The notes below the pieces were generated by a model, which had not been told where the DNA came from, made no database searches, and saw only the letters and a list, made by a program, of their open reading frames with translations. From Chloroflexota bacterium (GTDB lineage: Bacteria; Chloroflexota; Anaerolineae; Aggregatilineales; Ch27): DNA of 64,000 nucleotides. Every line of letters starts with the position of its first letter. Position 1 is the first letter of the stretch. This document shows, piece after piece, positions 4,295 through 45,435 of this stretch. A program made the position numbers and the translations under genes. The stretch lies in the NCBI GenBank assembly GCA_019873685.1, contig JAIOAT010000001.1:255523-319522 (forward strand). The letters run 5' to 3'.

Positions 4295-4379
4295 TTGTCT
4301 CCTTTGTCTGCACTGGCAATCGCCAGCGGTGCTCTCGCTCAGACGTTCTACTATTGTAGTGGCTCGACCGGATTCGCAC

Positions 4380-44142: not shown

Positions 44143-44157
44143 TTGAGTTCGTGAAAA

Positions 44158-44245
44158 CAGGCTCTCCCTACGCCGGCATTACCCGGATCAGGTCACAGGG
44201 TCGACGCAGCTGCGTCCTCTCAGTTCGCGTAACGAACTCCCCTGG
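44158..44245 (-). ncRNA. TPP riboswitch (THI box)
   Basis: Read on the minus strand: GGGGAG at the 5' side, CTGAGA (44218-44223), a GACGCAGCTGCGTC hairpin, then CCTGATCCGGGTAATGCC and GGCGTAGGGA (44165-44192). These are the conserved pyrimidine- and pyrophosphate-sensing elements of the TPP aptamer in the right order and spacing. It controls the thiBPQ operon, so thiamine import is shut off when TPP is plentiful. Confidence 0.95.
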
Positions 44246-44283
44246 CCGTGCAGTATCGATTGTTAACCAAGCATCCGATAGAT

Positions 44284-44310
44284 ATTATACACCTATCAAA
44301 AGCTTGCCAA
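44284..44310 (-). promoter_or_regulatory. Promoter of the thiBPQ operon
   Basis: On the minus strand TTGGCA (44305-44310), 15 bases, TATAAT (44284-44289). The -10 is perfect and the spacing is short. Transcription would start near 44277, about 30 bases before the riboswitch. Confidence 0.55.
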
Positions 44311-44323
44311 GGGTACAAAGTGG

Positions 44324-44335
44324 TGCTATTTTATA
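44324..44335. repeat. Left copy of a 12-base inverted repeat flanking the recombinase gene
   Basis: TGCTATTTTATA here matches the reverse complement of TATAAAATAGCA at 45424-45435, on the other side of the recombinase gene. The left copy directly abuts the dif-like palindrome. Confidence 0.55.
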
Positions 44336-44363
44336 AGGGCGTATAAATGCCATAATGCGCCCT
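44336..44363. other. dif-like 28-base palindromic site (11+6+11)
   Basis: Plus-strand arms AGGGCGTATAA and TAATGCGCCCT, separated by ATGCCA. The arms are inverted copies of each other at 9 of 11 positions and match the geometry of Xer sites. Read on the minus strand, the arm AGGGCGCATTA matches the XerC arm of E. coli dif at 8 of 11 positions (shared GCGCAT), and the other arm shares the TTAT start of the XerD arm. The outer bases extend the symmetry (ATA/TAT). It ends 17 bases before the ATG of a Xer-like recombinase. A transcription terminator is an alternative reading because TTTTC follows. Confidence 0.5.
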
Positions 44364-44380
44364 TATTTTCTATTCAGGAT

Positions 44381-45382
44381 ATGTGTGCACTCATGAAGGA
44401 CAAGTCGCGCGCTCTGGCAGCAATCAACGATAACTTACAGGTGCTTGTGCCTCCTGACTCCAGCAAAGATGGCCGTCATCGTCTCAGCAAATTCGCTGGC
44501 TGGCTCAACGCTACAGGCGGTGGCTGGGCTGCTCCAGACTTGCGTCGTTACCGGGATTATCTGCTTCATGAGGAAAGATTATCCCCCGAAAGTGTGGCGG
44601 TGCATCTGTCCACCATCCGCACCCGGTACAGAGAATTGCTGCTGAACCGGCGACTTTTCTTCTCTCTGGTTCCTCCACAGGCAAGCTTTGCCGAACACAA
44701 GGCGCTTGTCGATGAACTCATTGCACGTATCCAGGCGGCGATTGATCCGCGTGCGGCGAGCGTCCGGACGCGTTCGCGCCAGGATCGGGCTGACTCCGAG
44801 CGGCTGCGCCTTAGCCAGGAGGAGGTACGCGCGCTGCTGGCTGCGCCAGATAGCAGCACGCTTGCCGGTGCACGCGACCGCGCCATTATCGCCCTGCTGA
44901 TCTGCACCGGTATCCGTGAGGCGGAGCTGTGCGCCCTCCAGACGCAGGACCTGCGCCAACACCTTGAAGGCGCCCTGGCGCTGCACGTCCGCGCCGGGAA
45001 AGGCCAAAAGGAGCGGCTGATCCCGTACGGAGAACTTGACTGGTGCCTGTCCTATGTTGACGCCTGGTTACGTAAGGCTGGTATTCACAGTGGCTACGTG
45101 TTTCGTGGCCTGCGCAAAGGCGATCATGTTCGAGAGACGCCGCTAAACGAACGGACTATCCAGAAGATTCTGGCCCGCTATCCGATTGAGATTCAGGGGA
45201 AAATACGCGTGGTGCAGCCGCATGACTGTCGCCGGACCTACGCCCGCCGACTATATGATGCCGGTGTCAAAGTAGATGCCATCCGGCAAAATATGGGGCA
45301 CGAAACGATTGAGATGACGTTCAGTTATATTGGACGGCCTGACGTGATGGATCGATTGCCTCCAAAGGTTTTCCAGCCATAA
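44381..45382 (+). CDS. Xer-like tyrosine recombinase
   Basis: 333 residues. N-terminal core-binding domain with SAM-like helices (RLSKFAGWLNATGGG, LHEERLSPESVAVHLSTIRTRY); catalytic domain with all six residues: Arg in TGIREAELCAL, Lys in RAGKGQKERLI, HxxR in QPHDCRRTYARR, His in MGHETIEMTF and Tyr in TFSYIGRP. Cuts and rejoins DNA through a phosphotyrosine intermediate. The length is greater than XerC/XerD (about 300) and near single-recombinase Xer proteins. No second Xer gene or other phage gene lies nearby. An internal ATG at 44393 is an alternative start. Confidence 0.9.
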   Translation: MCALMKDKSRALAAINDNLQVLVPPDSSKDGRHRLSKFAGWLNATGGGWAAPDLRRYRDYLLHEERLSPESVAVHLSTIRTRYRELLLNRRLFFSLVPPQASFAEHKALVDELIARIQAAIDPRAASVRTRSRQDRADSERLRLSQEEVRALLAAPDSSTLAGARDRAIIALLICTGIREAELCALQTQDLRQHLEGALALHVRAGKGQKERLIPYGELDWCLSYVDAWLRKAGIHSGYVFRGLRKGDHVRETPLNERTIQKILARYPIEIQGKIRVVQPHDCRRTYARRLYDAGVKVDAIRQNMGHETIEMTFSYIGRPDVMDRLPPKVFQP

Positions 45383-45423
45383 TATGGCCATGTTAATATC
45401 CCCCTACCCCAAGATGAAAAATC

Positions 45424-45435
45424 TATAAAATAGCA
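45424..45435. repeat. Right copy of the 12-base inverted repeat flanking the recombinase gene
   Basis: TATAAAATAGCA, the exact reverse complement of 44324-44335. It lies in a very AT-rich stretch (about 45405-45490), in contrast to the GC-rich surroundings. Confidence 0.55.

Follow-up and report, generated by a model that had tools for sequence, protein, structure and literature searches.

XerCD/dif is generally regarded as almost universal, and the lineages without it (streptococci, epsilon-proteobacteria and Legionellales) each use a different single recombinase. Cre keeps the P1 replicon monomeric. In the XerS system, the 31-bp difSL has two arms that differ from each other, on either side of an 11-bp centre (PMC5357621). 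For Legionella, the dif of its single recombinase is reported to lie 35–43 kb from the skew inflection, with distances of up to 79 kb in other species (PMC9765430). For Chloroflexota, the one survey that we found gives dif predictions for Dehalococcoides only (PMC3025954), and a search of the literature for papers that mention Chloroflexota together with chromosome dimer resolution came back empty.

Here, we analyzed a window of 64,000 nucleotides (C1:255523-319522) from a draft Chloroflexota genome (G000; 4.12 Mb, 109 contigs, 96.8% complete). A sequence-only reading of this window had described a dif-like 11+6+11 palindrome next to a Xer-like recombinase gene, and had proposed either a chromosome dimer resolution locus or a selfish element that exploits dif. 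We consider it highly probable that gene and palindrome are a Cre/lox-like recombinase–site pair with an autoregulatory site. That this pair resolves chromosome dimers in the lineage has, in our estimate, close to an even chance.

A 34-bp inverted repeat lies directly upstream of the recombinase gene

The position of the 28-mer AGGGCGCATTATGGCATTTATACGCCCT (44336–44363, minus strand) was confirmed: it ends 17 bases before the ATG of an intact recombinase gene, which begins at 44381. As described, its arm AGGGCGCATTA contains GCGCAT and agrees with the XerC arm of E. coli dif at 8/11 bases, and the other arm begins with TTAT. As evidence for dif this agreement is weak: by a hand estimate, agreement with a dif arm at 8/11 positions has a probability of ~1e-3 per arm and register, and several were tried. 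The inverted repeat itself is real, but it is not confined to 11+6+11. The 28-mer is the core of a longer repeat, ATAAGGGCGTAT-10-ATGCGCCCTTAT (12+10+12, one mismatch), whose symmetry runs over 34 bp (44333–44366), and the common frame of the site among relatives is 13+8+13, in which the arms of the window site are symmetric at 11/13 positions (Table 1). A PWM scan of contig C1 gave the window site a score of 29.6, with the runner-up at 11.9.

A TPP riboswitch (Rfam RF00059; window 44147–44253, minus strand) heads an operon for an ABC transporter, which opens with the gene of a substrate-binding protein. The riboswitch sits between this operon and the lox-like site.

Table 1. Features of the recombinase locus, in window coordinates.
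Feature	Position	Strand	Remarks
GC-skew maximum/step of C1	22080..22670 (C1:277.6-278.2 kb)	.	21.7 kb from site
Promoter-like TTGCCA-17-TATTTT, extended TG	44304..44332	+	-10 ends one base before site
Lox-like 34-bp site, 13+8+13, ATAAGGGCGTATA AATGCCAT AATGCGCCCTTAT	44333..44366	.	All 26 arm bases shared with G001 and G004
Left half-site ATAAGGGCGTATA	44333..44345	+	10/13 identical to loxP arm ATAACTTCGTATA
Asymmetric 8-bp spacer AATGCCAT, expected crossover region	44346..44353	+	AAGTCCCT in G001, AATGGCAG in G004
Right half-site, minus-strand reading ATAAGGGCGCATT	44354..44366	-	Two differences from left arm kept in three species
Tyrosine recombinase gene	44381..45382	+	333 aa; alternative ATG at 44393

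Site and locus are conserved among close relatives

In G001, a genome of the same genus whose recombinase is 93% identical, the site reads ATAAGGGCGTATA AAGTCCCT AATGCGCCCTTAT. In G004, from another genus (58% identity over the part of the protein present), it reads ATAAGGGCGTATA AATGGCAG AATGCGCCCTTAT. All 26 arm bases are the same in G000, G001 and G004, including the two that break the symmetry, and three of the eight spacer bases differ between G000 and G001; the adjoining leader (44254–44332) is identical at 61/79 positions between these two genomes. When up to three mismatches over the 24 specified arm bases were allowed, the site occurred as a single copy in each of the three genomes, always beside the recombinase gene, and was not found in 10 other genomes. 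Arms that are identical in three genomes, present once in each and absent from 10 others argue that the palindrome is not a product of chance.

The recombinase gene of G004 adjoins the same large lipoprotein-like gene as that of G000, which makes the locus common to G000, G001 and G004; its remaining neighbours differ. This bears out the arrangement originally read from the window, in which the site of a single recombinase immediately adjoins the recombinase gene. In the incomplete assemblies G002 (91% complete) and G003 (82% complete) the recombinase gene was absent, with no match at E ≤ 1e-3, and the recombinase therefore appears not to be universal in the family. These two genomes also gave no match to the Xer model at E ≤ 1e-20.

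Lox-like sites accompany the wider recombinase family

Homologues were present in 54 of the 154 genomes of the order, spread patchily over 17/61 genera, and IMG/VR supplied six additional family members, 44–51% identical. A genome-contig search with the single recombinase protein gave no match, and an alignment used as query returned distant Xer-like proteins only. Relatives with 13+8+13 sites in the same place are 34–53% identical; some belong to other chromosomes of the order, some to contigs of phages or phage-plasmids. About 12 further family members carry an upstream 13+8+13 site, including those on phage contigs L248–L251, and the arms of the family follow the consensus AT(A/T)A..(T/G)CGTATA. 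With an 8-bp spacer, the upstream site is ATACCTTCGTATA GCAGTAAA TATACGAAGGTAA in G005 and GCTATGTCGTATA ATTGCCCG TATACGACATAGC in G006. G024 has two upstream sites, ATAACTTCGTATA ATTTAGAT AATACGAAATAAT and ATTACGTCGTCTA AGTGGCAG AATACGACATTAT, and one of their left arms equals the loxP arm ATAACTTCGTATA at 13/13 positions. Sites with 8-bp spacers also lie upstream in G113 and G112 (weaker) and on viral contigs L248, L249, L251 and L250 (weaker). Altogether, we found about 15 new candidate pairs of recombinase and lox-like site.

Across 24 family arms, C at position 8 is invariant (24/24), G at position 9 occurs in 20/24, and the inner TATA hardly varies. G024a and G005, the sites most similar to loxP, were left out of a matrix of the family, and with this matrix the loxP arm outscored 200,000 of 200,000 random 13-mers. 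The arms of E. coli dif, placed in the 13+8+13 frame, scored like random sequence (p ~0.7). The site had been proposed to be dif-like; its 13+8+13 geometry, its arm sequence and the conserved equivalent of Cre Arg259 described below point to a Cre/lox type instead.

Furthermore, 32 genomes were scanned with the predictive pattern TNCGTATA-N8-TATACGNA, allowing at most one mismatch. The scan matched two sites that had not been used in defining the motif (G096:C588 and G121:C22), each directly upstream of a family recombinase; fewer than 0.001 such upstream matches are expected by chance (hand estimate from ~7 kb of upstream DNA in ~165 Mb). Matches to the lox pattern in G053, G100, G014 and G117, and three in G121, were taken as chance because no family recombinase lies nearby and some fall inside ORFs. 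A second near-perfect lox-like site of G096, TTTACTGCGTATA CCGCGCAT TATACGAAGTAAA (L346:2352, contig C366), is intergenic with no recombinase nearby, and the site of the G096 recombinase itself has a different spacer.

In the tree, phage and phage-plasmid members are interspersed among chromosomal ones, and the recombinase family is mobile over evolutionary time. Contig L246 encodes ParA (Pfam) and a NikA-like mobilization protein, and L247 has a ParA-like gene by sequence. On L246, which is phage-plasmid-like, a dif-like palindrome (CAATGCAACATAA-TCTATC-TTATGTTGCATTG, positions 4326–4357) lies 675 bp upstream of the recombinase match. The g28 genus of the order (e.g. L010, L126 and L131) has one or two recombinase copies in nearly every species; footprinting upstream of these copies revealed neither a palindrome nor a conserved site, and the -10 alone stands out.

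The recombinase probably acts like Cre/lox but is not closely related to Cre in sequence

The product of the 333-aa ORF matched PF00589 (Pfam, 2.7e-25), and its reading frame is intact. The nearest NCBIfam models are XerC, XerA and XerD, with all scores far under cut-off (XerC, 86.7 bits with a cut-off of 335; XerD, 79.8 bits with a cut-off of 330); the XerS model gave 54.5 bits (cut-off 267). The catalytic set R179, K207, H281, R284, H307 and Y316 is kept across the family alignments, where an invariant GKG motif suggests that K207 is the catalytic lysine. The dN/dS of the gene between G000 and G001 is 0.039, and it is under strong purifying selection.

In PDB sequence searches with family profile A1, XerD (1e-20) and XerA (2e-16) were followed by Cre (5e-10) and XerH (1.5e-6). 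Cre is more distant from the family profile than XerD and XerA are, and identity to Cre is ~20%. The structure of the recombinase was predicted with a mean pLDDT of 86, and for this model, of pTM 0.58, the best structural matches were Cre/Tre–DNA complexes and XerA, which led the Foldseek results, and XerH. VIA-align gave Z values in the same range, 17–21, for Cre, XerA and XerH; the Cre/loxP complexes aligned over both domains at Z ~18.

Residue R258 presumably corresponds to Cre R259 and K29 to Cre K43, in an alignment with a Cre sequence whose known catalytic positions were checked. Cre Arg259 has been reported to face C8G9T10 of loxP, and K43 is likewise among the loxP-reading residues of Cre (PMC4957104). 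Arginine occupies the Cre R259 position in 13/13 site-bearing members of the tree, a count that ignores kinship, and the g28 representatives, which have no site, carry tryptophan there. We conclude that the recombinase probably works like Cre/lox, yet is no close sequence relative of Cre.

The site overlaps the predicted promoter

The -10 element ends one base before the site, which places the expected transcription start inside the left arm. By eye, TGnTAnnnT was found at the same spot in G001 and G004, and in several relatives TATAAT is embedded at the junction of left arm and spacer or lies beside the site. Since TATAAT is embedded in many sites, part of the CGTATA similarity could be a -10 element; the right arm, which lies away from the -10, is likewise conserved. 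Because the site directly follows the -10 and covers the expected start, binding should repress the recombinase gene, and the recombinase should, from this promoter layout, control its own expression via the site.

The locus lies in the probable terminus zone, and canonical XerCD/dif was not found

GC skew was computed at third codon positions on contig C1, separately for the genes of each strand, and genome-wide from sampled contigs. On C1 the skew is ~+0.14 up to 260 kb, drops to near zero at 280–340 kb and is below zero where the contig ends, with the best step at 278 kb (bootstrap 271–282 kb) and the cumulative peak at 277.6 kb. The lox-like site, at C1:299.9 kb, is ~22 kb from this step. 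In G001 the step lies at the orthologous place and is again 22 kb away from the site, although its bootstrap interval is wide. The skew check suggested by the sequence-only reading placed the probable terminus zone near the site, at the same offset in two species. A polar-oligomer analysis of C1 put the switch at 277.5 kb, as GC skew did, and gave no clear KOPS motif. The skew is weak to the right of the site, and sampled contigs C6 and C8 are near zero, with the other sampled contigs consistent in sign; for these reasons, and because G000 and G001 are not independent, we put the coincidence with the terminus at ~1–3% by chance. A distance of 22 kb is well within the range reported for Legionella (35–43 kb, and up to 79 kb in other species; PMC9765430).

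In the closed genome G118, whose skew switches near 3.7 Mb, homologues lie at 4.15 and 0.37 Mb, one ~0.45 Mb from the switch and the other near the origin. No lox-like site adjoins the one G118 homologue that was examined. The remaining contigs were short or only weakly skewed. The proposal of a dimer resolution locus is strengthened by a single recombinase in the terminus zone, but weakened by the lack of the gene in G002 and G003 and by the G118 homologue ~450 kb off the switch.

A PRK00283 search of 18 genomes of the order found no protein above the cut-off, which just 5/14 controls passed, and the canonical dif pattern gave chance-level matches only in 14 genomes. A palindromic dif-like site in G038 (C53) was rejected, as it is not common to other members of its genus. 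FtsK-gamma was found in 7/7 genomes tested. The searched genomes of the order had no canonical XerC/XerD or dif. Besides the window gene, G000 encodes two Xer-like recombinases (C28 and C96), which score ~171 bits to the Xer model and have an 11+6+11 palindrome of their own. These recombinases, with their palindrome, could serve the chromosome.

This second, more Xer-like recombinase (~302 aa) is encoded at L041:6988-7994 (G000 C28), L040:126-1133 (G000 C96) and L052:7593-8604 (G001 C30). Its upstream palindrome is ATGCGGGATAC-6-GTATCCCGCAT, with nearly fixed arms and a variable spacer. In G000 the palindrome and gene form a ~1-kb unit at two places that is 96% identical, the homology running from palindrome to stop codon, and the unit is possibly a minimal mobile cassette. 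In G001 a DUF499 ATPase (L052:8775-11801, C30) adjoins the second recombinase, possibly in a defence-type island. A 315-aa protein of G000 (L004:1102-2049, C41), beside an ABC-transporter ATPase gene, is a weak XerD relative (76.8 bits) and possibly a degenerate recombinase.

A proposed model and its alternatives

From these features we infer binding, recombination, repression and dimer resolution by the pair, as follows. A recombinase dimer would bind the site upstream of the recombinase gene by its pair of 13-bp arms, and two such sites, on sister chromosomes or within a dimer, would synapse. Strand exchange across the 8-bp spacer would proceed via Tyr316, with a second recombinase not obligatory, and the spacer would be free to drift, as it must match its own sister copy only. 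The bound site, over the expected transcription start, would repress the recombinase gene. Phage and phage-plasmid members with ParA would keep their replicon monomeric, and the chromosomal copy, retained in the terminus zone, would most likely take the part of XerCD/dif in resolving chromosome dimers. Our best explanation of the sequences is therefore a Cre/lox-like module with a single, autoregulated recombinase, which the chromosome has probably retained in order to resolve dimers, and we give it an even chance. The fuller scenario, in which a Cre/lox-type pair took over dimer resolution in a lineage without XerCD/dif, with the site as both crossover point and operator and with sister families keeping phage-plasmids monomeric, we rate somewhat below even.

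Alternatively, a Cre/lox-like recombinase may have been captured from a phage-plasmid, its palindrome now serving mainly as an autoregulatory operator, with no role in dimer resolution or with another one, such as interference with related phage-plasmids. This would agree with a site that overlaps the core promoter both in the window and among numerous relatives, with the phage and phage-plasmid members interspersed in the tree and with the patchy spread over 17/61 genera. However, the catalytic residues are intact and purifying selection is strong, a symmetric 13+8+13 site with a freely varying spacer fits what crossover needs and exceeds what an operator needs, and locus and terminus zone are the same within the family; we regard such a captured operator as rather unlikely. 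The selfish element proposed earlier, an IMEX-like unit of site and recombinase inserting at host dif, is improbable. Gene and site do travel together, and the second recombinase family of the same genome has its 1-kb site-plus-gene unit at two places. Here, however, each genome has one copy with no second site, duplicate or flanking repeat, there is no canonical dif to exploit, and the spacer drifts between congeners, whereas an att core would have to be conserved; the shared locus of G000, G001 and G004 also argues against insertion, so that conserved synteny already weakens this reading.

Xer/dif proper, with the 28-mer as the 11+6+11 dif of a single Xer recombinase, would account for the 8/11 match to the XerC arm, the terminus zone and the higher rank of XerD and XerA over Cre in PDB sequence searches with the protein profile. 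It is quite improbable given a symmetry that reaches 34 bp, relatives with a 13+8+13 frame and loxP-like arms that dif arms do not fit, and NCBIfam XerC, XerD, XerS and XerA scores far under their cut-offs. Least of all do we favour a palindrome that acts as RNA, as a 5'-UTR hairpin or terminator that controls the gene and is unrelated to the recombinase protein. A 12-bp stem does fold where the transcript is expected to start, but its folding z-score of just -1.3 is not significant, G004 has no T-run after the stem, several relatives have their site over or ahead of the -10, which would leave it out of the transcript, and the arm changes among relatives follow lox-like symmetry; such an RNA function is very improbable.

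Comparison with known systems

If the Cre/lox-like module does resolve chromosome dimers, a lineage that relies on a Cre/loxP-like pair joins those with a single recombinase, and plasmid and chromosome dimer resolution would be directly linked; recombinase and site near the terminus may be a previously unrecognised means of separating joined chromosomes. About 15 lox-like pairs, one with a half-site equal to that of loxP despite ~20% identity to Cre, would also be useful for understanding and engineering Cre specificity.

Like XerCD/dif, the locus combines a tyrosine recombinase fold with a palindromic core site in the terminus zone and FtsK-gamma in the genomes; unlike it, there is one recombinase, the site is a 34-bp one in the lox frame with arms unrelated to dif, and the scores lie under the curated Xer cut-offs. 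XerS/difSL of streptococci and lactococci shares the single recombinase, the site directly beside the gene and the terminus region, and differs in site architecture (13+8+13 here) and in the XerS score (54.5 against 267). XerH/difH of Helicobacter and Campylobacter also has a single recombinase, and the model aligns with XerH–difH complexes at Z 16–18, but XerH was matched weakly by the profile in PDB (1.5e-6). XerL/dif of Legionellales is likened by description only: the single recombinase is not recognisable as XerC, XerD, XerS or XerH, site and skew switch are tens of kb apart, and the arms are symmetric (perfectly so in XerL dif) and unlike other dif sites (PMC9765430). In contrast to the present locus, xerL is not described beside its dif in the sections consulted, and the arms are of 10 bp in a 29-bp conserved sequence (PMC9765430).

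The closest parallel is with Cre/loxP of P1 and the Cre-type systems Dre/rox, Vika/vox, Nigri/nox, Panto/pox, VCre and SCre, which share an intergenic 34-bp 13+8+13 site near a single tyrosine recombinase. With Cre/loxP in particular, the arms agree at 10/13 positions here and at 13/13 in one G024 arm, arginine and lysine stand at the positions of Cre R259 and K43, relatives occur on phage-plasmid contigs with ParA, and the model aligns across both domains. Unlike Cre, the recombinase is only ~20% identical to it, has sequence profiles that favour Xer proteins, and carries H307 where Cre has W315. Unlike Cre/loxP, the pair is chromosomal, vertically inherited and located in the terminus zone, and its site lies on the promoter of the recombinase itself.
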